A stretch of DNA of 40,142 nt from Luteitalea sp. (GTDB lineage Bacteria > Acidobacteriota > Vicinamibacteria > Vicinamibacterales > Vicinamibacteraceae). Where the stretch lies: positions 1-40,142 of the forward strand of contig WHTT01000060.1 of assembly GCA_009377605.1 (NCBI GenBank). Reading direction: 5' to 3'. Below the pieces are notes generated by a model. That model ran no database searches. It saw only the letters and a program-made list of their open reading frames with translations, and was not told the origin of the DNA. Shown piece by piece: positions 1 to 12,684 of this stretch (the first letter of the stretch is position 1; each line of letters begins with the position of its first letter). A program made the position numbers and the translations under genes.

Positions 1-707
1 ACGGCCTCCAGGTGGCCATCAATCGACCGTTCAGGAATGGCTTGCTCCTCAAGGGCGCGTACACCTGGTCGAAGTCGATGGGCGACTCGCCCGACGGTGA
101 GGACGACCAGGACAGCCTCTTCTGGAACGCGCCGAACCAGCTCCATCGCAACTATGCGCTGCAGCCGTTCGACCGCACACACGTCTTCCAGCTTGGATTC
201 CTGTACGAGCTGCCATTCGCGCGGAACGCCACAGGTCTCACCAAGGCACTGGCCGATGGCTGGCAGGTGAACGGGGTCTTCTACGCCTACACTGGCTTAC
301 CCTTTACGGTAACCGCCAACAGCGGCATCTCGATCAACATGCCTGGCAACGAGCAGACGGCTGATCAGGTAGGAGACCCTCAGAAGCTCGGGAACATTGG
401 TGACGATGGCCCGTACTATGATCCGAGCGCGTGGGAGCAGCCCGAGGGTGTGCGCTTTGGCAACAGCGGCCGCAGCTCCGTCCGCGGACCCGGCGGCTGG
501 AACACGGACCTCTCGGTCTTCCGGAGGTTCCCGATGGGCGGCACGCGCAACCTCGAGCTTCGCGTCGAGGCGTTCAACGTCTTCAATCACCCGGTCTTCA
601 CGAGGCCTGAAACGACGCACTCGTTGACCGACGACACCTTCATGCAGATCTTCGACACCGACGTCGGTCCGCGAGCGGTCCGCCTCGGTATGCGCTTCAG
701 CTTCTAA
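1..707 (+). CDS. TonB-dependent receptor, Oar-type, C-terminal fragment
   Basis: The 3' end of a gene that starts before the window; the frame is open from base 3. The fragment holds the last barrel strands of an Oar/CarboxypepD-reg-type outer-membrane receptor. Visible family hallmarks are a YTWSKSMG segment, 'FDRTHVFQLGFLYELPF', 'GWQVNGVFYAYTGLPF', an 'ELRVEAFNVFNHPVF' motif and a terminal Phe after 'RLGMRFSF', as expected for a BAM-assembled barrel. The same motifs occur in the two complete receptors at 21671 and 33871. Its stop codon overlaps the ATG of the next gene (TAATG), so it is co-translated with a GH109-like enzyme; this suggests that it imports a glycan or a product of that enzyme. 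The substrate cannot be read from the sequence. The GTG at base 12 is internal and is not the real start. Confidence 0.9.
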   Translation, partial: GLQVAINRPFRNGLLLKGAYTWSKSMGDSPDGEDDQDSLFWNAPNQLHRNYALQPFDRTHVFQLGFLYELPFARNATGLTKALADGWQVNGVFYAYTGLPFTVTANSGISINMPGNEQTADQVGDPQKLGNIGDDGPYYDPSAWEQPEGVRFGNSGRSSVRGPGGWNTDLSVFRRFPMGGTRNLELRVEAFNVFNHPVFTRPETTHSLTDDTFMQIFDTDVGPRAVRLGMRFSF

Positions 708-2083
708 TGGATACTCACATCGACCGGAGAGCATTCTTGAAGGCCTCTGCCGTCGCGGCAGGCGGCGCGACCCTCGCGTCCGGCACCGCGTCGCGCGCTC
801 AGGTGCCAACCGCTGCCAGTCCCTCTGCGAAACCGATCCGGCTCGGTTTCGTTGGTATCGGGGGAAGGGGCACGTACCACCTCGACTGCGCGCTCGGGAT
901 GGAGGGCGTGGAAATCCCAGCGCTCTGCGAGATCCGAGAGGATCGGCTGCAGAACGCGAAGAAGATGGTCGAAGAGTCGGGCCGCGGCGAGCCCACCCTC
1001 TATGGCCGCGGCGAGACGGACTTCCAGCGGATGTGCGAGACCGAGGCGCTCGACGCCGTCATCTGCTCCACCTCCTGGAAGTGGCACACACCAGTGTGCC
1101 TGGCGGCCATGCGAAGCGACAAGCATGCCGTGAGCGAGGTCCCCATCGTCCTCACGGTAGACGAGGCGTGGGAGCTGATTGAGACCTTCGAGAAGACCAA
1201 GAAATGGGCCACGCTCGCGCTCGAGCAGGTGCTGCTCGAATCCAGCGACGGGATGAACCTGGCCGTCTTGAACATGATCAAGGAAGGCGTCCTCGGCGAG
1301 ATCATTCACGCCGAGGGCGGCTACATCCACGACCTCCGACTCGTGATGCACGATCCGGAGGAAGAGCCGTGGCGTCTCTGGCACTCGATTCATCGCAACG
1401 GCAACCTCTACCCGGATCACCCCATGAACACCGTGATGCCGTATCTGGACGTCAATCACGGCGACCGCTTCGACTTCCTCATGTCCATGAGCACGCGTTC
1501 CGGCATGCTCAACGAGTTCGCGAAGACGTACTACTCGCCGGATCATCCCAATGTCACGCTGGAGATGAAGCAAGGTGATTACAACGCGACCATCCTCCGT
1601 ACGGTCGATGGCAAGGTCGTGACATTGAATCACGACACCCACACGCCGCATCCCAGGGGCATCGTTCGCGTGCAGGGGTCGAAGGGCGTGTTCATGAACG
1701 GGCGAGGGCTCGACGGGCCGAAGATCTACCTGGACGGCATCAGCCCGGAAGAGCACGAGTGGGAGGACGCGACGCCGTACCTGCAGGAATATCAGCACCC
1801 GCTCATCAAGGCGTACGACCCACCGGAGCGCACAGCCATACGCGGGCACGGCAGCGGCGCCAGGCGAACGCCGCTGACCTGGAGCCTGCTCGTCGAGGCG
1901 CTGCGCCGGGACGAGATGCCGTACTTCGACGTGTACGACTCGGTCACCTCGAGCGTCATCTCTCCGTTGACGGAGAAGTCCGTCGCCAACAGGAGCAAGC
2001 CGGTCGACTTTCCGGACTTCACCCGAGGCAAGTGGCAAAGCCGGCCGCGTCTCGACCTGTTCAATTTCGTGGCGTACGTCTGA
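707..2083 (+). CDS. Gfo/Idh/MocA-fold protein, GH109-like (alpha-N-acetylgalactosaminidase family), Tat-exported
   Basis: 458 residues. The N-terminus is a twin-arginine signal (DRRAFLKAS, then an Ala/Gly-rich stretch ending near ASRAQ), so it is probably exported folded with its cofactor. A Rossmann motif GIGGRG lies at residues 50-55. The rest matches the GH109 pattern better than an ordinary sugar dehydrogenase: 'EGGYIHDLR' (Tyr206), 'HSIHRNGNLYPDH' (Tyr235, His238, the Tyr-x-x-His pair of the GH109 active site), 'HGDRFDFLMSMS', 'VTLNHDT' and a C-terminal 'VDFPDFTRG'. GH109 enzymes cleave alpha-GalNAc or related glycosides by an NAD+-dependent oxidation-elimination mechanism; the actual substrate here is not proven. 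The start overlaps the receptor stop (TAATG) without a clear Shine-Dalgarno, implying translational coupling. A paralogue follows 24 bp downstream. An alternative call is a plain Gfo/Idh/MocA oxidoreductase. Confidence 0.9.
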   Translation: MDTHIDRRAFLKASAVAAGGATLASGTASRAQVPTAASPSAKPIRLGFVGIGGRGTYHLDCALGMEGVEIPALCEIREDRLQNAKKMVEESGRGEPTLYGRGETDFQRMCETEALDAVICSTSWKWHTPVCLAAMRSDKHAVSEVPIVLTVDEAWELIETFEKTKKWATLALEQVLLESSDGMNLAVLNMIKEGVLGEIIHAEGGYIHDLRLVMHDPEEEPWRLWHSIHRNGNLYPDHPMNTVMPYLDVNHGDRFDFLMSMSTRSGMLNEFAKTYYSPDHPNVTLEMKQGDYNATILRTVDGKVVTLNHDTHTPHPRGIVRVQGSKGVFMNGRGLDGPKIYLDGISPEEHEWEDATPYLQEYQHPLIKAYDPPERTAIRGHGSGARRTPLTWSLLVEALRRDEMPYFDVYDSVTSSVISPLTEKSVANRSKPVDFPDFTRGKWQSRPRLDLFNFVAYV

Positions 2084-2107
2084 CCTGGGAAGCGAAAAGA
2101 GACGCGT

Positions 2108-3400
2108 ATGGGCACCTCGACGGATCGCAGGAGCTTTCTGAAGACCCTTTCCGCGCAGTCTCCGCGCGGAACGGATCGGCCGATCAAGCTTGGATTCATC
2201 GGCGTCGGCGGGCGCGGCTCCTTCCACCTCGATGCTGCCCTGGGCATCGAGGGGGTGGAGGTGCCGTGCCTGTGCGACATCAGCAACGCGAATCTCTACC
2301 AGGCAAAGCGGTGGGTGGAGGAATCCGGTCGTCCCACACCGCGTCTCTACAACCGCAGCGAGACCGATTTCGAGCGCCTCTGCGAGAAGGAGGAGCTCGA
2401 CGCCGTGCTCTGCGCCACCTCGTGGGAATGGCACGTGCCGGTCGCGCGCGCGGCCATGCAGAACGGCAAGCACGCGATCATGGAGGTGCCGCTCGTCCTG
2501 ACGGTCGATGAGGGCTGGGAGCTGATCGAGACCTTCGAGCGCACCGGTAAGTGGGCCACGCTTGGCGTCGAAGGGTTCCGCAGCCTGGCCGTGACCCACA
2601 TGGTGCAGCAAGGCCTCTTCGGCGAGATTCGCCACGCCGAAGGCGGATACGTGCACGATCTTCGGCTCGTGAAGTTCGACCCTGAGCGCGAGCCGTGGCG
2701 CCTGCACCATTCCGTCGAGCGCAACGGCAATCAGTACCCGGATCATCCGATGAGCGCCATGATGCCGCAGCTCGACATCAATCACGGCGACTGCTTCGAG
2801 TATCTCGTGTCAATGAGCTCGAAGGCGATCATGCTCAATGAGTTCGCGAGGTTCTACTACGGCAAGGATCATCCGTATGCGACCAAGCCGATGGCGCAGG
2901 GCGACTACAACGTCACGCTGATCCGTACGGCCGGGGGCAAGATGGTCACGCTGAACTTCGACACCAACACGCCGCATCCACGCGGTTTCTATCGCCTTCA
3001 GGGGACCAAGGGCGTGTGGTGGTCGCCGCACTACGTGGAGACGCAGGAGTCGCGCATCTACATCGAGGGCCGCAGCCCGGAGAGCCATCAGTGGGAGCCC
3101 GCCGCGAAATACGTCGAGGAGTACCAGCACCCGGTGCTCAAGAGCTACAGCCCCGCACCGCGCCGCGCCGCCCTCCGGGGACACGGTGGCGCCTCGCGGC
3201 GGACGCCCATCGAATGGCATCGCATGATCGCGGCGCTTCGCGAAGACAGGATGCCCGACTGGGACGTGTACGATTCAGTGACGTCGAGCGTCATCTCGCC
3301 GCTGTCGGAGCAGTCGGTCGCCATGAACGGACGCCCCGTGGACTTCCCCGATTTCACCAAGGGTAAGTGGAAGGCCGCATCGCGATGGCTCCTGACTTGA
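2108..3400 (+). CDS. Second Gfo/Idh/MocA-fold GH109-like paralogue with a defective Tat signal
   Basis: 430 residues, collinear with the upstream paralogue from the Rossmann motif GVGGRG (residues 32-37) to the C-terminal 'VDFPDFTKG'. The GH109-type Tyr-x-x-His is kept (Tyr210, His213 in 'NGNQYPDHP'), as are 'EGGYVHDLR' and 'INHGDCFEYLVSMSS'. The N-terminus begins with an intact twin-arginine motif (DRRSFLKTL), but the hydrophobic core that should follow is missing: only about ten polar residues separate it from the Rossmann domain, against about 35 in the paralogue. It may therefore stay in the cytoplasm, or travel with a partner such as the upstream protein. It is the third gene of the receptor-GH109-GH109 operon and ends 59 bp before a convergent gene. 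Start chosen from the Tat motif, with a weak GGGAAG upstream. Confidence 0.88.
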   Translation: MGTSTDRRSFLKTLSAQSPRGTDRPIKLGFIGVGGRGSFHLDAALGIEGVEVPCLCDISNANLYQAKRWVEESGRPTPRLYNRSETDFERLCEKEELDAVLCATSWEWHVPVARAAMQNGKHAIMEVPLVLTVDEGWELIETFERTGKWATLGVEGFRSLAVTHMVQQGLFGEIRHAEGGYVHDLRLVKFDPEREPWRLHHSVERNGNQYPDHPMSAMMPQLDINHGDCFEYLVSMSSKAIMLNEFARFYYGKDHPYATKPMAQGDYNVTLIRTAGGKMVTLNFDTNTPHPRGFYRLQGTKGVWWSPHYVETQESRIYIEGRSPESHQWEPAAKYVEEYQHPVLKSYSPAPRRAALRGHGGASRRTPIEWHRMIAALREDRMPDWDVYDSVTSSVISPLSEQSVAMNGRPVDFPDFTKGKWKAASRWLLT

Positions 3401-3458: not shown

Positions 3459-4526
3459 TCACCGCTCGACGGTAATCACTCCCCACGGACGGTCGCCCAC
3501 CTCGATCTTCTTGATGACGGTTCGCTTGGCGAGGTCGACGACCGAGACGTCGTTCGAGGGCCCGTTGGCGGTGTAGAGGTATCGGCCGTCCGGCGACACG
3601 GCAATGCCCCATGGGCGCTCACCCACCTCGAAGGAGGCGGTCACCTCGTCTGATGCCGTGTCAAAGACGACGACCTGGCCGCCACGGCCGGTGCTCACAT
3701 ACGCTTCCGCTGCATCTGGCGAAAGCGCAATCGCCATCGGTCTCAGCGTTGGCGCACCCAGTTTGATGGTCTTGATCTTCTTGTGACTCCGTGGGTCTAC
3801 GACGGCGACACCCGCCTCGTTCTCCAACGTCACGTACGCCTTCGATCCGTCCGGTAGGAAGGCGCTGTCGCGCGGGCGCAGGCCGACCGGCACGTTTGCG
3901 ATGACCTCCGCCTTGGCCGTATCGATAACGGCCACGCCATGGTCACCTTCCGACGTGACGTACACCACGCTCCCATCGGGGCTGGTCGTCACCCCTTCCG
4001 GCTCCTCGCCCACCGGCAGCGCCTTGATGATCTTGCCGCTGGCCGTGTCGAGAATGCTCGCCTCGGCCTTGTCCTCGTTGGAGATATAGAGCAGGCGTCC
4101 GTCCGGGCTGAGGTCGAACTCTTCCGGGTCCGATCCGGACTCCAACACCTTCTCGAGCTCGTTCGCCTGAAGGTTGAACCGGCCGATACCGTCTGCGCTT
4201 CTATCCGGGGGCGGCAACGTCGACTCGTCCACGCCGGGCGGCGAGATCGGCGAACCGCTCAGCGCGACGTAGATCGTCTGGCGATCGGGGCTCGCGTGGA
4301 TGCCGCGTGGCCGCTTTCCAAGCGGCACCGTGGCAATGACCTCGTGCGTTGCGCCGTCGATGACGCTCAGATCGCCCGACATCTCGTTGGTGACGTAGAT
4401 GCGATACGCGCCGGGCCGATCCTGCGCCTCGGCACGCGCATTCGTCGTTGTCGGCTCTCCGGCACTCCCGCCGCAACCCATCGCCGCGAGCACGGCACCA
4501 ATAACAAAGCCATGCAATAAGCGCAT
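3459..4526 (-). CDS. YVTN-repeat beta-propeller lipoprotein
   Basis: 355 residues. The N-terminus is a lipoprotein signal with Cys18 after AAM (a slightly unusual lipobox). The body is built from about seven repeats of roughly 40 residues with the pattern 'YVTN/YISN...V.VIDT....I...PVG..P.G....PDG...Y', a typical seven-bladed propeller. It probably sits in the periplasm, membrane-anchored, as a binding or scaffold protein. It is the last gene of the minus-strand run that includes a TonB receptor, a PQQ dehydrogenase and a cytochrome c. YVTN propellers are known companions of PQQ-dependent alcohol oxidation genes, so a role in that module is likely but not shown. It is separated from the receptor by a 158-bp gap filled with REP-like palindromes, which may weaken transcriptional linkage. 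Confidence 0.9.
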   Translation of the reverse strand: MRLLHGFVIGAVLAAMGCGGSAGEPTTTNARAEAQDRPGAYRIYVTNEMSGDLSVIDGATHEVIATVPLGKRPRGIHASPDRQTIYVALSGSPISPPGVDESTLPPPDRSADGIGRFNLQANELEKVLESGSDPEEFDLSPDGRLLYISNEDKAEASILDTASGKIIKALPVGEEPEGVTTSPDGSVVYVTSEGDHGVAVIDTAKAEVIANVPVGLRPRDSAFLPDGSKAYVTLENEAGVAVVDPRSHKKIKTIKLGAPTLRPMAIALSPDAAEAYVSTGRGGQVVVFDTASDEVTASFEVGERPWGIAVSPDGRYLYTANGPSNDVSVVDLAKRTVIKKIEVGDRPWGVITVER

Positions 4527-4551
4527 CGTTACCCCTTATTGCCTTGGACGC

Positions 4552-4671
4552 GCCCGACCTAAAGTCGGGCCTACACTCGAATGCCGAAACTGCACACCGT
4601 ACTCGTAGCGCAGGCCTTTAGGCCTGCCAACAGCGGCACGACACATGGGCAGGCCTGAAGGCCTGCGCTAC
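4552..4671. repeat. REP-like palindromic element, three units
   Basis: Three related palindromic units. 4605-4628 begins GTAGCGCAGGCCTTTAGG and is mirrored at 4648-4671, with one mismatch, across a 19-bp spacer. A third, diverged unit at 4552-4574 (GCCCGACCTAAAGTCGGGC followed by CTAC) has the same plan: GTAG at one end and a GC-rich palindrome centred on CTTTAG. The first arm is identical over 24 bases to one at 37100-37123. The paired arms could fold into a long hairpin between the TonB receptor and YVTN genes and affect the operon's 3' end. Confidence 0.85.
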
Positions 4672-4684
4672 GGCCTGAAGAGGC

Positions 4685-6986
4685 TCAGAATCTGACGTCG
4701 ATGCTGAGCCAGGCGGTACGCGGAGCCCCAGGGCTCACGAACCGCCTGTCATCGAAGTCTGCACCCAGCAGAGACGCGTCACCAAGCACGCCAAATGTCT
4801 GATACTCCGCGTCGAAGACATTGTGCACGGTCACCGAGGCGGCAAGCTCTGGTGTGATCCAGTACCGCGCGCTGGCGTTCAGTAGCCAGAAGCCATCCAA
4901 TGGCGCGAGCCGGTTCGCCTCGTCTCCCCGGTAGAACTGCGACGATTGCGCATGAAGGACGCCGCCCAGCTCGAGTCGTCCGACGCTCGCCTCCACACCG
5001 GCTTTTGCGGTGTGCAGCGGCACGCCTGGAAAACGACTGCCGGCTTCAACCTCGATCTCACCCGATGCCGCCTCGGGATGCTGTTGGCTGGCGATCTGTA
5101 GATCGGTTCCGAACCTGACATTCTGGAGGCTGTAGCTGCCGAACGCGTGAAACAGCGCGCCGTGCGCCTCGACGCCAGCCTCGAGACCGCGCCTGGAGGT
5201 CCGGTCGACGTTCTCGAAGTGCCCTTCACCGCGGAGCGCGCCGCTGCTGACAAAGATGATGTCGTCGCGAGACGAGGTGGAGAACGTCGCAATGGTCCAC
5301 TCCAGCGCTCCCGTCGTACCTCGCACACCGCCCTCCCACGTCCGAGCGACGACCTGCTCGAGCGGCGGATCGGACACGAACGCGTTTGGAAGCCGGCACG
5401 GGTCCTCCGGGTCGGCGCAGGTCAGCTCCACAGCCGTTGGAATCCGTGACGACTCGCTGTAGCCGCCATACAGGTTGATCGCGGGCCTGAGCTGATACGT
5501 CACGCCGGCGGCTGGATTGACGCGCGCGAAGCGATGGTCTCCATTGAGCGCGGTGCCTATCTGGTCGCGGAGGGCCATTGTCGACCAGTTTGCGCGAGCC
5601 GAAGCGGTGACGGCGATCGTGCTGGTCATCGACCACGTGTTGGTCAGGAAGACACTGCCGTTCACCATGCGGCTGCGAAGCCCCACCGCCGCCTCGTCTT
5701 CGAACAGCCCCGTGCCGATGGTGCCGCGGTCCGGCGTGAGATGCGCCCACTCTGACGCAAAGGCAAAGCGCGTGACGCCGGCATCGAGGCCGCCACCCAC
5801 GATCAAGTGGTTCTCGCGGCCGAGCATCGGCGCCGTGTGCGTGAGCTGTGCGCTGACGCCGGAGGCGTTGGTCCGCGTGTCGCTCAGGCTATTGACACCA
5901 TCGAACGCCAGCTCGTCAATCCTCGTCCAGCACCCCTTCCTCCTCTGTCTCCTCCTCTGTCTCCTCCTCTGTCTCCTCCTCCTCCTCCTCCTCCTCGTCC
6001 TCCTCGTCTGCCGCATCGCCGTTGAAGGTGTCGACGCTTCCGTCGCGATAGTACGCAACGGCGTCCAGACGCGTCCGATCGGAGTGCACGCGGCGCGCGC
6101 GCACGGTCGCCATGAGCATGCGATTGTCGGTGGCGTCTGGATGTGTGAACACGGCGCGCCTGTTGGTTGTGAGGAGCTGCTCGGGCACCGCACCGTTGCC
6201 GATGACGTCGTTGCTCGCCGCGGTGACGCTGACCTGGACGAGGTGGACCTTGTCGCGCCACGCGACGTCGCCGTACACGCGACGCACCGATGAGGGTGAG
6301 AAGTCGCGCCACCCATCCTCGTCTGTCAGCGTGCCGGCCGCGAAGTACGCCAGCGAGCCGCGCCGACCACCGGACGACACCTCGAGCGTCTTCCTGCCGA
6401 ACGAGCCCAGCGTGAAGGACGCGCTATGACCAGGGTGCGTGAACCCATCCTTTGTTTGGATGCTCAGCGCGCCACCGAGTGTATTGAGCCCAAAGAGCGG
6501 ATTCGAGCCAGGGATGCCGTTCACGCTGGCAATCGCCGCCACCGGGATCGTGTCCCAGCTCACCGTGTCGCCGAACGGCTCGTTGATCCGCACGCCGTCC
6601 TGGTACAGGGCCAACCCCTGGGCGCCGCCGAGCAGCGGCGATCCGGTGAAGCCGCGGAAGAGCAGATCCGGCTGGAACGTGCCGCCCTGTACCTCGCTCA
6701 GCTGCATGCCCATGGCGCGCTCGGCGAAAAGCGACGGCAGCTCGGCCTGCGGAGCGGCCCGCGAAACGGCCCTGGCGCTTGGGGTGAGCACCTGGACGTT
6801 GGCTGGAATCTTCAGCTTCGGAAGGCCGATCCCATGGATCGGTGTGACGCCAACCACCTCGATGGTCTGCTGATAACGTGGAGCCTGCGAGCTCTGCGCC
6901 TGCGGTGCCTGGTCTGGATCCTGCGCTGCTGCGGCAGGAATGGTCGCCAACAGCAACGCGATGAGAGGCAGGCAACGGACAATCAT
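4685..6986 (-). pseudogene. TonB-dependent receptor with acidic repeat loop, frameshifted
   Basis: Two overlapping frames encode one receptor of about 765 residues. The N-terminal part runs from ATG 6986 (signal peptide MIVRCLPLIALLLATIPAAAA) through the plug ('LPSLFAERAMGM', 'QPDLLFRGFTGSPLLGGAQG', 'DGVRINEPFGDTVSWD', 'GSNPLFGLNTLGGALS') into the first barrel strands, and stops at 5916. The C-terminal part resumes in another frame at 'DELAFDGVNS' and ends with the barrel signature '...WLSIDVRF'. Joining them needs one base removed (or two added) within about 5920-6010, where a Glu-rich repeat (DEEDEEEE...TEEETEEETEEE) sits in a probable surface loop. The start lies 31 bp after the PQQ dehydrogenase stop, so it belongs to that operon. 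It could be a true pseudogene, a phase-variable gene or an assembly error. Residues upstream of 6986 are not part of the protein. Confidence 0.8.
5937..6009 (-). repeat. Acidic-loop microsatellite: 12-bp units plus (GAG)8
   Basis: On the plus strand this reads as three 12-bp units (5937-5948 with one variant base, 5949-5960, 5961-5972, unit CTCCTCCTCTGT), then eight CTC triplets (5973-5996), then a mixed Asp/Glu tail. On the coding strand it gives Glu-Glu-Glu-Thr repeats and a Glu run. Units are multiples of three, so gain or loss of whole units changes loop length without changing frame. The frame change must come from another event, such as the adjacent CCCC at 5933-5936. Confidence 0.85.
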
Positions 6987-7017
6987 CGGAAAGGCGTGTG
7001 GTCTCGTCCTCGTCTCT

Positions 7018-8663
7018 TCATTGACGCGCCGACTCGGGCAGCGCGAAGGCGTACAGCGCGTTGCCGCCAGGCACCGCGACGTACTGGCGGCCACCCACGG
7101 CGTACGTCATCGGACCGCTCCTCCCCACCGTGCCGCCAAGATTCGTCCTCCACAAAACGACACCACTGCGCACGTCGAGGGCGACGAAGGTGCCGTCCAT
7201 TCCGCCCCCAAAGAGCACGTCGGCGGCCGTCGTGAGAACGCCGCCCTCAGTATAGTTGGGCATCTTGAATTCCCACTTCTTCTCGCCGGTGCGTGGATCC
7301 AACGCTCGAATGGCGCCGTATCCCTCTTCTTCCTTCCGGACGGCCGCACGCACGCGCACCTCTCGCCGCGAGCCGGGAGGCGGCCCGCCCCTGCCGGCAT
7401 ACTTCTCCCCTGGCACGTACTTCGCGGGCGCTGAGTACGACACGGAGCTGTAATTGTCCCACGTGGGCACATAGATCAAACCGGTGCGCGGGCTGTACGA
7501 CGGCGAGTACCAGTTCGTGCCGCCTTGCGTGCCAGGTTCGATCAACGTGCCTTCCGGGCTCGATTGTGACCCGGGGGCGCGGATGGGGCGACCCTTTTCG
7601 TCGAAGCCGATGTTCCAGTTCTGTGTGACGAACGCCTTGGCCATCAGAAACTCGCCGGTGGCGCGATCCAGCACGTAGAAGAAGCCGTTGCGATTGGCCC
7701 ACAGCATCAGCTTCCGCGGCTCGCCTTCCCATTCCGCGTCGACCAGCACCGGCACCTGCACCGAGTCGTGATCGAAAGGATCGCCAGGTGTGAACTGATA
7801 GTGCCATTTCAGCTTGCCGGTCGCGACATCCACGGCAACGACCGAGTTCGTATAGAGGTTGTCTCCGGGCCGCGGCTCGGTGTTCCATCCCGGGTTGGGA
7901 TTCCCCGTTCCCCAGTACGTCACGTTCAATTCGGGATCGTAGGCGCCAGTCACCCACAGCGGCGCACCGCCATGCTTCCAGGAGTCGCCACCCCAGCTCT
8001 CGTTGCCCGGCTCGCCTGGCTGGGGAATCGTGTTGAAGCGCCAGAGCTCCTTCCCCGTCGCCGGATCGTGCGCGCTCAACCAGCAGTTCTTCCCCCACTC
8101 GTTGGTCCCGACACCGACCAGGATCTTGTCATCCACGGCCAACGGCGCAAGCGTCACCGAATAGCCTTCTTCCGTCTCCGCGAGCAGCGTGTTCCACCGC
8201 TCGCGCCCTGTCTTTGCGTCGATGGCAATCAGGCGCGCATCGATCGCCACCCAGTACACGGTGTCGCCGAGAATGGCGACACCCTTGGCGACCTTGAGCC
8301 AGTACTTCGCGTGGGGTTCGACTCATACCGATAGGTCCAGAAGATGCGGCCCGTGGCGGCGTCGAGCGCCACCACCTCGTCTGCTTGGACCGTGTACATC
8401 ACGCCGTCCACCACGAGCGGCGTGGCCGAATAGCCTCGGTCCAGGATGTAACCCGGTTGATAGACCCATTGCAGCTGCAGGTTCTTCGCGTTGTCCGTCG
8501 TAATCTGGTCCAGCGCGCTGTAGCGGTGGCTATCGTACGTCCCCGAGTAGGTCAGCCAATTCTGCGGCTCCTTGGAGGCATGCCGGATCCGCTCATAGCT
8601 CACCTGCGCTTGAACGGAGCCCACGAGAAGACAGACGGCCACCGCGGCGGTCGGGAGTCTCAT
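7018..8663 (-). pseudogene. PQQ-dependent alcohol dehydrogenase (quinoprotein), one-base frameshift
   Basis: About 548 residues once a single frameshift is repaired. The signal peptide (MRLPTAAVAVCLLVGSVQA) starts at ATG 8663, overlapping the cytochrome stop (ATGA). N-terminal blades ('TYSGTYDSHRYSALDQIT', 'LDRGYSATPLVVDGVMY') break after 'YRYESNP'; the propeller continues in another frame as 'HAKYWLKVAKG...'. One C is missing from the coding-strand run at 8313-8316 (GGGG on the plus strand). Quinoprotein hallmarks are 'YWGTGNPNPGWN', 'RPGDNLYTNSVVA' and W-docking repeats ('ALDPRTGEKKWEFKMP'). The catalytic region reads FDHDS: the Asp at 7771-7773 aligns with the catalytic Asp, and the Asp two residues later (7765-7767) is in the position that marks lanthanide-type enzymes. 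It would oxidise an alcohol in the periplasm and pass electrons to the adjacent cytochrome. The homopolymer site makes a sequencing error likely. Confidence 0.85.
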
Positions 8664-9448
8664 GGCTGGCCCTCCTGTTCGGCGACGAGATAGTGAATGA
8701 TGTCGATGACCTCCTGCTCGCTCAGCTTTCCTCGATAGGAAGGCATCAAGCCCTTCTCCACGAACGACAGCTCACCGACGTCTGCTCGCTGATACGACCG
8801 AAGCTGCCCGTTCGTGTCTCGTAGCTGAAGGCTGAACGCATCCTGGTTGAGGAGCGTTCCTCTCACGGTCTCGGCCTCGCGGGTGACCAGTTGAATGACG
8901 CGGTTCTCAGGGGCGATCTCGGCGTCCGGCTCCAGCATCGAGCGCTTCAGCTCGTCCATCGTGCGCCCTCGCGTCCCGAGGTCCGTCAGATCGGGACCGG
9001 CGTACGATCCCTGGTCTTGCACGCGATGGCAGGTGAAGCAGTCGTTGCCGGCAAAAAGCGCCTTCCCCCCCTGCGCATCGCCAGCAGGCAGCGTGAGCGT
9101 CCCGCCAAGCGCCTCTGATCGCAGGAATGCCACAATCTTCTCTGCGTCTGCATCGCTCACGTTCGAGGGCGGCATGGCGCCGCCCTCGGAGCCCTTGATC
9201 ATCACCTCGGTGAGCCGCTCATCGCTCATGTTCTGGCGAAGGAACTTGCCGCGCAGCAGATCCAGGGGCGGAAGCGCGTCCCCCCGCGCCCCGTGGCACA
9301 GCGCGCAATACGTCTGATAGAGCTCCGCCCCCGCGCTGACCTCTTCCGCCGAATACAGCTCTACCTCCGGCCGCTCCTGCGCCACCAGCGGACCGCTCAC
9401 CAGCAGGAACAGGACAAAAGCCGCCCCCGCGCCTCGCCAAGGTGTCAC
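8660..9448 (-). CDS. Dihaem cytochrome c, electron acceptor for the PQQ dehydrogenase
   Basis: 262 residues with a signal peptide (hydrophobic stretch to about VAQ, residue 24). Two c-type haem sites are visible: Cys48-Ala-Leu-Cys-His52 and Cys137-Phe-Thr-Cys-His141. Candidate axial methionines lie in 'GGAMPPS' (Met92) and near the C-terminus in 'GLMPSYRGKLS'. Each domain ends in a typical helix ('EKIVAFLRSE', 'VIDIIHYLVAE'). The start is GTG 9448, supported by a strong ribosome-binding site GGGAGGT at 9455-9461 with six bases of spacing. The stop overlaps the PQQ dehydrogenase ATG by four bases (ATGA), so the two proteins are translationally coupled and very probably partners. The gene lies only 53 bp downstream of the PfkB gene, so it could be read through from the sugar cluster, though its own good ribosome site suggests a separate unit is possible. 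Confidence 0.93.
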   Translation of the reverse strand: MTPWRGAGAAFVLFLLVSGPLVAQERPEVELYSAEEVSAGAELYQTYCALCHGARGDALPPLDLLRGKFLRQNMSDERLTEVMIKGSEGGAMPPSNVSDADAEKIVAFLRSEALGGTLTLPAGDAQGGKALFAGNDCFTCHRVQDQGSYAGPDLTDLGTRGRTMDELKRSMLEPDAEIAPENRVIQLVTREAETVRGTLLNQDAFSLQLRDTNGQLRSYQRADVGELSFVEKGLMPSYRGKLSEQEVIDIIHYLVAEQEGQP

Positions 9449-9501: not shown

Positions 9502-10434
9502 CTAATCCATCCAGCGAATGACGACCTCTGGCAGAAGCCGTTCGATGTCTTCCCGGCGAACGAACCCGGTCTCTTCGCACAGCAGCTTGGCGCTTCCGCA
9601 GGCCACGCCGAGGCGGAGGGCCTCCTCCATGGGCGCCTGACGGGCCAGGCCGACAGCCAATCCACCGACGAGACAGTCGCCAGCGCCTACGGTGTTGCGG
9701 ATCTCGCGCACGCTCGGTGCCGAGACGAGGCACGTCCGGCCATGCCAGGCGGCAACGACGCCCAGCTCGCCAGCCGACACCACGACTAGCTCCACGCCCC
9801 GGCGCTGCAGCTCATGGACGGCATCCACGAGATCCTCTTTACCAGCGAGGGAACGACCGATCAAGGCTGCCGCTTCCGCGATGTTCGGTTTGATCGCAAA
9901 GACGCCCGCGCTGACCGCCTCGCGCAGCGCGGCGCCGCTCGCATCGACGAGGCACCGGATGCGGCGCTCGGCGAGCGTGCGGCCAAGACGTGCGTACGTG
10001 CTCGCGTCGAGCCCGGGCGGCAAGCTTCCCGAAAGCACCGCCACGTCTGCTCCCTTGCAGCACTCGAGAAAGCACGATGTCAGTGACTCTCGCTCTGCCT
10101 CACGCAGCGCTGGGCCCGGTTCCAGAATCTCCGTCACTCGGCCCTCGCGATCCCTGATCGCGAGACAGGTGCGAAGCGTGCCCTCTATCCGCACGCCGTG
10201 GAAGGCGACGCCGCGAGCTTCGAGAAACGACCTGAGCTCTTCGTCGCTCCGTTCATCTACGCAGCCGACGAGACGGACCTCTTCTCCAAGCGCTGCAACG
10301 GCAAGCGCGACGTGCAGCCCTTTGCCGCCCGGCAGCGCCTGGACATTCCGTGTCCGCGTGACGCCGCCGATCTCCAGGAGGTCGACGTCGATCTGCTTGT
10401 CGATCGCGGTGTTGAAGCCTGCAACGGTGATCAC
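9502..10434 (-). CDS. PfkB-family kinase, 1-phosphofructokinase / tagatose-6-phosphate kinase-like
   Basis: 310 residues. It phosphorylates a sugar phosphate with ATP. N-terminal 'VAGFNTAIDKQI' and 'ALPGGKGLHVALA' are the LacC/FruK-type substrate signature; the C-terminal 'NTVGAGDCLVGGLAVG' holds the catalytic Asp and anion hole. The most likely start is GTG 10434, which overlaps the preceding gene's stop (GTGA) and puts the conserved N-terminus at residue 1; the same frame stays open for about 80 further upstream codons, but these lie inside the neighbouring gene. The AgaS-like protein upstream makes a tagatose-6-phosphate kinase role attractive, in a galactosamine-type pathway, but fructose-1-phosphate kinase cannot be excluded from sequence alone. 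No aldolase for the product is in the window. Confidence 0.88.
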   Translation of the reverse strand: MITVAGFNTAIDKQIDVDLLEIGGVTRTRNVQALPGGKGLHVALAVAALGEEVRLVGCVDERSDEELRSFLEARGVAFHGVRIEGTLRTCLAIRDREGRVTEILEPGPALREAERESLTSCFLECCKGADVAVLSGSLPPGLDASTYARLGRTLAERRIRCLVDASGAALREAVSAGVFAIKPNIAEAAALIGRSLAGKEDLVDAVHELQRRGVELVVVSAGELGVVAAWHGRTCLVSAPSVREIRNTVGAGDCLVGGLAVGLARQAPMEEALRLGVACGSAKLLCEETGFVRREDIERLLPEVVIRWMD

Positions 10435-11354
10435 GACGAGGCCCGCAAGAAGTCGCCCAGTTGGCTCGCGTCCGGCTGACTCGTCACGCCGCCCAGACCA
10501 AGCGTTGACAGCGCACCGCACGCGGCCCCCTGCCGCATGCATTCCTCCAAGGAGCGTCCGCGCAGCCAGCCGTGGAGGAAGCCCGCATTGAACGAGTCGC
10601 CCGCGCCGGTCGAGTCTACGGCGTCGATTGGAAACGCAGGCACGTGGAGCGGCTCGCCGTGAGACAGCGCCAGGCATCCCTTCGCACCAAGCTTGACGAC
10701 CGTCACCGTGCGCCCATTATCGAGCTTCCGTAGTCCTTCGAGGTGGTCGCGGCATCCGGTCACGGCGGCGAGCTCCACCTCGTTGGGAAGAAAGATGTCG
10801 GTGAGCCGAAGCAGGTCGACCAGGTCATCACCCCAACGCTCGCGTGGATCGAATCCTGGGTCGAGTGACGAGGTGAGGCCAAGACTGGACGCTCGCGCAA
10901 ATAGCCGCGCGCAGCACGGACGAAGCCCTGTCTGCAGGAAGTAGGAAGACACGTGCAGATGCGCGAACTGCGAGAGGACCTCCTCGCCCAGCCCCGCGTC
11001 GGTTTGGACGCGGCTGGCGCCCGCGAACGTGACGAGCGTCCTGTCGCCGTCGAACGGAATGGACACCGTCATCCCTGTTTGAAGCGAGCCGTCCTGTGTA
11101 ATGCGCGAGACGTCTATGCCCGCCTGACGCAATATGTCCAGGCAGTAGTCTGCCCAGCCGTCGCGCCCGACCGTGCTGACAAACGATACTGGATTCCCCA
11201 GCTTGGCCAGGCCGACGGCGAAGATCGCGGAGGCGCTGCCGAGCGTGAGCGCGCAGCTCTCGGCAAACACTTCGTGGCCGGGCGTGGGATAGCTATTGAC
11301 GCCGTGGAGCACCAAGTCGACGTTGAGCTCGCCGACGACCAGAGTTCGCTTCAT
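10431..11354 (-). CDS. PfkB-family carbohydrate kinase
   Basis: 307 residues from ATG 11354 ('MKRTLVVGELNVDLVL'), a start that matches the family N-terminus; an in-frame GTG at 11381 would add nine residues. Ribokinase-fold features: N-terminal beta strand with 'GELNVD', 'LTLGSASAIFAVGLAKLG' at the sugar-binding glycine-rich site, 'FLPNEVELAAVTG' before the nucleotide site, and 'DSTGAGDSFNAGFLHG' with the catalytic Asp. It differs from the adjacent kinase in lacking the GGKG signature, so it probably acts on an unphosphorylated sugar or sugar acid. It lies 28 bp after the SIS-domain gene and overlaps the next kinase by four bases, which makes a tight three-gene sugar operon. The substrate is not determinable. 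Confidence 0.9.
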   Translation of the reverse strand: MKRTLVVGELNVDLVLHGVNSYPTPGHEVFAESCALTLGSASAIFAVGLAKLGNPVSFVSTVGRDGWADYCLDILRQAGIDVSRITQDGSLQTGMTVSIPFDGDRTLVTFAGASRVQTDAGLGEEVLSQFAHLHVSSYFLQTGLRPCCARLFARASSLGLTSSLDPGFDPRERWGDDLVDLLRLTDIFLPNEVELAAVTGCRDHLEGLRKLDNGRTVTVVKLGAKGCLALSHGEPLHVPAFPIDAVDSTGAGDSFNAGFLHGWLRGRSLEECMRQGAACGALSTLGLGGVTSQPDASQLGDFLRASS

Positions 11355-11382
11355 TGAGTGATCGAGACTCGCAGCGCACACC

Positions 11383-12684
11383 TTAGGTCTGCGTGCGCCG
11401 ATGAATGTCGAATGACGCTACGACACGGGCGATTGCACCGTTTCTGGAGGGCCGATCCGGCTCGCAGCCGACGTGGAGCGACGAGAAGAACGCCATGAGC
11501 TGCCCCGCGAGCATCTCGAGCAGCGGCAGGTCGTCGTCTCGCAACGCATGTTCGTCGGAGACGTTGATGACAACAGCTGGCGTTCGAGCGCAATCGGTGG
11601 CGAGTCCCCGTCCGACGATCACCTTCAGCAGCCCGAGGTCCTTCTGATCCATCTCACGGATGACGTCCATCTCGTAGGCGCGCGTCACCGGATCCGAGGA
11701 CAGGAAGCAAAGCAGCACCGTGCCATCGTGGACCGCGCTCATGGGTCCATGCCGCAGCGACAGATACGTCTCGGCCATCGTCGGCATCTGTCCGGCGGTC
11801 ATCTCGAGCATCTTGAGGGCGGCTTCGCGCGCTGCACCATACATCGAGCCACTGCCAAGGAAGACGGCAGACCGGAAGCCATCGCGAGCAATGCGCGCGA
11901 GCGCATCCGCGTGCTGCAGTAAGAGCTGGGTCGCCGCTGCCGCGAGGCCCTCGATGCGTGAGATGTACGAATCGGGCGCATCGAGCGAGCCGAGAAACCT
12001 GCCAGCGGCCAACATGTTGGTGAGACTGCTGGTCATCACCAAGCTTCTATCGCACGTCGCATCATCGAGCACAACGGCCAGCGCGCGCGGATCGCGCTGG
12101 TATCGCTGCGCCAGGCGTCCCTCTTGGTTGCACGTGATGATGAGATGGCGGCACTCTGGCTCGGTCTCGAGGAGCAGGTCGATCGCAGCGGAGCTCTCGG
12201 GGCTGTTGCCTGACCTGCCGAGCGAGATCATCAAAGAGGGGCGCTCCACGGGCAGATGGCGGACGCCGTCGGTGAGCAGCTGCCCCGCCGGCACCGCGAC
12301 GACCGGCCGAGGAAGCGCGCCATGCAAGCACCACGACAGGCACTCCGCGCCGTAGAACGAGCTTCCGGATCCCGTCACGAGGATCGCGCCGGCCGGGCCT
12401 TGTGCAGAGGCATCCTGCAGGAAGCCTACGAGGATGTCGCGCCGCTGCACCATGGCGGCCGCCGTCCGGCGCCAGGTGCCCGGCTGCTGACAGATCTCGC
12501 GCAGCGTGTGATAGTAACCACTTGCGTGCTGCGCCTCGACCGGCCTGTCCAGCAGCGCGGCGAACGAGGCAACCCGGGCTCCGAGCTCGACCGCTGCGGC
12601 ATCGGGCGGCTGCATCGAGGTGGGCTCCGCCGGTTGCGCGAGCGGCGCATCGCTTACCGCTCGCCTGCGCGTCGTCTCAGGCAT
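11383..12684 (-). CDS. SIS-domain sugar isomerase/deaminase, AgaS-like
   Basis: 433 residues with two SIS domains: the first around 'ILVTGSGSSFYGAE' and 'ISLGRSGNSPESSAAID', the second around 'VFLGSGSMYGAAREAALKMLEMTAGQ' (quoted in part) followed by 'AETYLSLRHGPMS'. The latter pattern is typical of AgaS and glutamine-independent GlmS-like isomerases that act on 2-amino-2-deoxy-hexose 6-phosphates. The family converts galactosamine-6-phosphate to tagatose-6-phosphate and ammonia, which fits the LacC/FruK-like kinase two genes downstream. It is the first gene of the minus-strand run and is divergent from a DeoR regulator across 157 bp. The first 30 or so residues are low-complexity and poorly conserved, so the start could be slightly downstream; GGAG at a suitable distance supports ATG 12684. 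Confidence 0.88.
   Translation of the reverse strand: MPETTRRRAVSDAPLAQPAEPTSMQPPDAAAVELGARVASFAALLDRPVEAQHASGYYHTLREICQQPGTWRRTAAAMVQRRDILVGFLQDASAQGPAGAILVTGSGSSFYGAECLSWCLHGALPRPVVAVPAGQLLTDGVRHLPVERPSLMISLGRSGNSPESSAAIDLLLETEPECRHLIITCNQEGRLAQRYQRDPRALAVVLDDATCDRSLVMTSSLTNMLAAGRFLGSLDAPDSYISRIEGLAAAATQLLLQHADALARIARDGFRSAVFLGSGSMYGAAREAALKMLEMTAGQMPTMAETYLSLRHGPMSAVHDGTVLLCFLSSDPVTRAYEMDVIREMDQKDLGLLKVIVGRGLATDCARTPAVVINVSDEHALRDDDLPLLEMLAGQLMAFFSSLHVGCEPDRPSRNGAIARVVASFDIHRRTQT

Follow-up and report, generated by a model that had tools for sequence, protein, structure and literature searches.

Does the TonB-dependent receptor coded beside a pyrroloquinoline quinone (PQQ) dehydrogenase in an acidobacterial genome supply that enzyme with a lanthanide? 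The question is raised by a four-gene locus at positions 3459-9448 of a 40,142-nucleotide stretch of DNA, called the window here, from Luteitalea sp. (GCA_009377605.1, contig WHTT01000060.1, positions 1 to 40,142). On the minus strand the locus codes, in order, for a dihaem cytochrome c (8660..9448), the PQQ dehydrogenase (7018..8663), the TonB-dependent receptor (4685..6986) and a YVTN/YncE-type beta-propeller with a lipoprotein-like start (3459..4526). The cytochrome c gene, which ends at 8660, is coupled by an ATGA overlap to the dehydrogenase gene, which starts at 8663. Family scans agreed with the genes named in an earlier, sequence-only reading of the window. The cytochrome, which is the probable electron acceptor, has a CxxCH motif at residue 48 and another at 137 and scored above the cut-offs of PF13442, PF00034 and TIGR02603. 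The dehydrogenase matched PF01011 and the receptor PF07715 and PF00593; the propeller scored above the cut-off of PF21783 and, with 264.8 bits vs a cut-off of 287.3, is only a close relative of TIGR03866. Our answer is a tentative one, placed at slightly under an even chance: a LutH-type metal receptor may serve a non-XoxF quinoprotein that has a second Asp two positions beyond the catalytic one (DxD) and is loaded with scavenged PQQ.

The receptor family travels closely with lanthanide-type enzymes, and for this reason the receptor may import a rare-earth metal. In 229 evenly drawn genomes of Gammaproteobacteria the receptor (E <= 1e-100) was found in 24 and an enzyme of the TIGR03075 family (PQQ-dependent methanol/ethanol dehydrogenase) in 39, 37 of them above the cut-off. 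The enzyme was present in all 24 receptor carriers vs 15 of the 205 non-carriers (Fisher 1.3e-22; 7.4e-22 without the centre genome; the statistics ignore kinship). A DxD enzyme occurred in 23/24 carriers vs 7/15 dehydrogenase-bearing non-carriers (Fisher 0.00075) and the XoxF-like string TPHDEWDYDG in 20/24 vs 1/15, a comparison that read 39 of the 60 carrier genes and all 21 non-carrier genes. Among named carriers the enzyme was found in 46 of 50 (45 above the cut-off), and none of the 14 control genomes matched. The relatives of the receptor occur mainly with PQQ enzymes; the contrary would have refuted the sequence-only reading by its own terms. In the window's class the receptor was found in 33 of 149 genomes, and a close relative of the window enzyme (E <= 1e-100) was present in 31 of these 33 vs 48 of the 116 others (Fisher 1.7e-8).

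The neighbors of the family were surveyed in the best 80 loci of named genomes, of which 27 belong to genomes named as methylotrophs (such as Methylophaga, Methylomonas, Methylobacter and Methylophilus) and many others are gammaproteobacterial. A PepSY protein was coded near the receptor in 8/80 loci at a median distance of 58 bases, and the one PepSY neighbor that was scanned contained two PepSY stretches; LanPepSY is described with two PepSY domains (PMC12482762). A clear dehydrogenase was present in the flanks of 6 of the 80 loci vs 1.15 expected (Poisson 0.0012, or 0.0066 when L080, with a contig apparently identical to that of genome G004, is left out). Adjacency alone was not retained as the main evidence, being only modest, and it is the co-occurrence that carries weight. 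Family members were also present in 31 plasmid records, seven of which were inspected. On pMNOD02 of M. nodulans a member lies two genes before a lanmodulin gene, whose product matches 6mi5 (E 5e-38); mxa-type genes are close by, and this member falls inside the receptor family in the tree. In Sphingobium, Burkholderia multivorans and Variovorax a DxD PQQ dehydrogenase is coded within 5 kb of the member, with an annotated PQQ-dependent catabolism-associated propeller also nearby in Sphingobium and Variovorax; no annotated PQQ gene was found in the stretch around the member in Caballeronia, Methylocalor and M. fujisawaense. Eighteen places with lanM, the lanmodulin gene, were examined in a draw of 398 Pseudomonadota, and a family receptor was beside it at three of them. 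The plasmid search for lanM returned M. nodulans and M. extorquens CM4 only, and around lanM in CM4 the stretch inspected carries no receptor annotation.

These neighbors recall known lanthanide receptors. LutH-like receptors and their wide spread have been published (PMC12482762), and lutH is clustered with lanM in the lut cluster of M. extorquens AM1 (PMC7391723). The present family is like LutH/LanA in that a member adjoins lanM in M. nodulans and the three sampled genomes, and in that it co-occurs with XoxF-type enzymes; it differs in that the window genome has no strong XoxF match, and the link to lanM and XoxF, seen for the family, may not extend to that genome. The proposal that the receptor captures a lanthanide survives in part: some family members adjoin lanmodulin or PepSY genes, but the acidic loop on which it leaned is variable and both key genes are frameshifted. 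The Glu-rich loop of the window receptor stems from a 12-base tandem repeat of 6.1 copies (5938..6009, minus strand). In the family alignment many relatives also have an acidic loop at this position, but its form varies and some members lack it. A crude pattern, a run of at least five D/E/H residues, was matched in the window's class by 14 of the 30 frames that could be parsed and at the named loci by 16 of 81, four of these 81 being unparsed. The loop was set aside as a weak family-defining feature. At L227 6884-9835, L049 7099-10491 and L228 7668-10529 the loop has more than 100 Asp/His residues, with up to 66 acidic residues and 10 His.

The dehydrogenase gene reads in two frames, so that the word "repaired" in the sequence-only reading was apt, and the enzyme was scored as a read-through protein with X at the frame break. 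Its FDHDS motif (codons at 7773-7771 and 7767-7765, as placed earlier) aligned with the catalytic site of solved quinoprotein alcohol dehydrogenases, which the C-terminal part of the window enzyme matched, and with that of PedH-, MxaF- and XoxF-type rows; the motif thus lies where the earlier reading had put it, at the catalytic site. A 14-row alignment showed all four metal-site residues (Glu, Asn, the catalytic Asp and Asp+2) in register with those of PedH and XoxF types. Here and below, the aligned residues are given the roles that we take them to have (metal ligands, PQQ-contact Arg, Cys pair). The enzyme passed TIGR03075 narrowly (488.6 bits vs a cut-off of 480.05); its best-scoring NCBIfam model was TIGR04528 (acido-empty-quinoprotein group A), whose cut-off it did not reach (507 vs 650 bits). 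The tree grouped it with the F/Y-D-x-D-S enzymes of the window's class and away from those of the XoxF, MxaF, PedH and type II kinds, and XoxF identity was rejected on the ground that it lies outside the XoxF/MxaF clade. The XoxF query at E <= 1e-150 gave no match in the own genome and matches in 6 of the 149 genomes of the class, three of them receptor carriers. PF13360 was matched 71 times in the own genome (6.79 Mb, 382 contigs), and of the 12 quinoprotein frames of this genome in the tree 10 have DxD, L067 and L068 being without it. As DxD is so common there and is also found in the E. coli Gcd control, the motif alone proves little and was rejected as sufficient proof of a lanthanide enzyme. 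The idea of a lanthanide-type enzyme stands as regards the four metal-site residues and is weakened by a non-specific DxD and a tree position that is neither XoxF nor PedH. In genomes of group f8 (e.g., G013, G093 and G097) first-look PQQ dehydrogenase candidates reach 197-219 per genome, so that quinoproteins are very greatly expanded there.

Three genomes of the same family (G003, G004 and G005) have the receptor next to the cytochrome c and dehydrogenase genes. There the receptor is divergent from these two genes; the four genes of the window, by contrast, share one orientation. G003 and G005 also have a YncE propeller next in line, and the contig of G004 ends before that place. All three dehydrogenases read HDWD, and the two that were scanned (G003 and G005) pass the TIGR04528 cut-off, which the window enzyme fails while passing TIGR03075. 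The recurrence of receptor, cytochrome and dehydrogenase in three related genomes is more than chance. No receptor was found in G001, which belongs to the same genus, or in two further genomes of the family, G002 and G006. The neighbors of the receptor in the rest of the class are little conserved. L227 has a 72-bit dehydrogenase match with no recognized site, and at L222 a YncE propeller adjoins the receptor. From the divergent layouts, the patchy receptor and the 29 carriers of the class without a clear dehydrogenase, it follows that the pairing is lineage-bound here, with partners from different enzyme subfamilies, and it recurs in other phyla. Co-occurrence of the receptor gene with DxD dehydrogenases was borne out by presence in the genome (23/24 gammaproteobacterial carriers), and adjacency to a clear dehydrogenase was limited to 4/33 in the window's class. 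At four of the 33 loci (L045, L046, L210 and L227) a gene that reads as a PhoD-type phosphatase adjoins the receptor. The dehydrogenase gene adjoining the receptor in G004 (L042 120-2532) spans two frames, like that of the window.

The nearest solved structure to the receptor, by profile search and by a fold search with a model of the G027 relative (mean predicted local distance difference test score, pLDDT, 70.5), was PqqU (6v81, 9c4o). The receptor might then import PQQ or a PQQ-metal complex and not a free or chelated metal, which would suit an own genome without a pqqC match and a family that is accompanied by PQQ enzymes; moreover, yncE adjoins pqqU (E. coli YncD) in E. coli, just as the YncE propeller follows the window receptor. 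The PqqU signature, however, consists of Y/F/W99, R304 and R365 (PMC12124388); the window receptor, which reads L, G and R there, fails two of the three. No aligned row of the family has an aromatic residue at 99 or an Arg at 304, and the family was separated from three PqqU proteins by a 100/100 split in the tree, so that PqqU identity was rejected in spite of the structural match. Family members also adjoin a complete pqqABCDE in Burkholderia and pqqCDE in Variovorax. At the Thiodiazotropha-type loci L081, L083 and L084 a second receptor gene lies ~2.5 kb or less from the family member, and in the two that were aligned (L083 and L084) it carries the PqqU signature. The own genome itself codes for a signature-positive receptor elsewhere, on contig C83 (F99, R304, R365 and Glu274), directly upstream of a quinoprotein. 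PQQ import by the window receptor is therefore distinctly improbable. Of the 12 best PqqU-like loci in a set of 40 related genomes, seven have the full signature, all with Glu274; PMC12124388 lists Vicinamibacteria among the organisms that produce PqqU and raises the possibility that a Glu at this position permits metal co-transport. At the C83 locus (C83:13003-17112; L067 7004-11113) the quinoprotein downstream of the receptor has no DxD site. Another metal or a siderophore as the cargo, with an indirect link to PQQ enzymes through a shared lifestyle, seems quite unlikely to us as well. Generic siderophore-receptor models gave weak scores, the Asp/His-rich loops of many relatives would fit other metals, and quinoproteins are abundant enough in the window's class for adjacency there to be chance. 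Yet in Gammaproteobacteria the enzyme was found in just 39 of 229 genomes and nevertheless in all 24 carriers, and lanmodulin and PepSY genes are neighbors of the family.

The locus could also be a remnant, with dehydrogenase and receptor as pseudogenes and an operon that is dead here whatever its relatives do. The dehydrogenase has one frameshift (frame 8663 to ~8320, then frame 8319 to 7018), and the receptor, the adjacent gene, opens with the ATG at 6986, meets a stop at 5918-5916 and is read on in another frame from 5920 to 4685, the plug being coded in the first frame and the barrel in the second. A remnant would also agree with the changed PQQ-contact residue and long branch of the dehydrogenase (see below) and with the missing receptor in G001, G002 and G006. 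On the other hand, each gene has a single lesion and no other stops, the metal-site residues of the dehydrogenase are retained, and the codon-position pattern is normal in the scanned parts. The receptor frame change comes directly after the tandem repeat in an assembly of 382 contigs, and sequence errors are possible. We consider a dead operon unlikely, and the set may still work despite the frameshifts; with two broken genes in the assembly, activity in Luteitalea sp. itself is nevertheless uncertain.

Several observations weigh against a LutH-type receptor that feeds this quinoprotein. Besides the kinship that the co-occurrence statistics ignore and the nearness of the receptor to PqqU in structure, a clear dehydrogenase (>100 bits) lay beside the receptor in only 4 of the 33 carriers of the class, and none was found in the stretches read, some of them short contigs, for the other 29; XoxF-like enzymes were present in 3 of the 33. 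Away from the class, 15 of the 18 lanM places had no family member nearby, including that of G584, the closest LanM relative. The window enzyme has a Lys at the PQQ-contact column where the other 13 rows of the alignment have Arg, lacks the Cys pair that its closest relatives have and sits on the longest end branch in a clade of nine rows, and its Asp+2 is shared with E. coli Gcd, which reads HHDLWDMD. With two frameshifts this copy may be decaying, and the LutH-type name rests on synteny and co-occurrence.

On the LutH-type reading, the parts would act together as follows. No pqqC match was found in the own genome (one of 40 genomes including it had a match above the cut-off) and no pqqE match there reached the cut-off, and the organism therefore probably scavenges PQQ, which would probably enter by the separate PqqU-type receptor of C83. 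The window receptor would most likely bring a lanthanide ion or chelate across the outer membrane, and the imported metal would load the DxD site of the dehydrogenase. The periplasmic enzyme would oxidize an alcohol or a sugar-like substrate and pass the electrons to the dihaem cytochrome c that is coded before it. A sugar-related substrate is possible in view of the genes upstream of the cytochrome gene: two PfkB kinases and a SIS-domain protein (9502..12684, minus strand; possibly co-transcribed) are separated from it by a 53-base gap, and a DeoR regulator is divergent there. Promoter-like matches numbered two vs 1.0 expected, none of them on the operon strand. In a codon-position scan, which is not a full annotation, the rest of the window consisted mostly of long open frames. 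At 707-3400, convergent on the operon, lies a tandem pair of Gfo/Idh/MocA oxidoreductases with a GH109-type C-terminal domain.

The sequence-only reading held that a set of this make-up would be of interest outside methylotrophs. XoxF3 clusters of Acidobacteria and Gemmatimonadetes that include cytochrome c, TonB and YncE genes have already been published (PMC10875860); the window has genes of these three kinds too, but its enzyme is not XoxF, and the non-XoxF partner is what makes the set a variant. In the open-licence PMC literature we found no description of this receptor family paired with non-XoxF acidobacterial quinoproteins in a pqqC-less genome, and no match for "empty quinoprotein". 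If the reading is true, lanthanide acquisition would extend from XoxF methylotrophs to XoxF-free Acidobacteriota, and the receptor family would be a genomic marker for DxD quinoproteins that truly use lanthanides, which the motif alone cannot decide. The label "empty" for acidobacterial quinoproteins would also be questioned, because in the own genome one quinoprotein goes with a PqqU-signature receptor and another with a putative LutH-type receptor. A wider proposal, which we regard as rather doubtful, is that Acidobacteriota without PQQ synthesis or XoxF run their quinoproteins on imported PQQ (by a Glu274 PqqU-type receptor) and an imported lanthanide (by a LutH-type receptor), that the "acido-empty-quinoproteins" and their kin are not empty, and that the large non-XoxF DxD branch would consist of lanthanide enzymes for substrates other than methanol.

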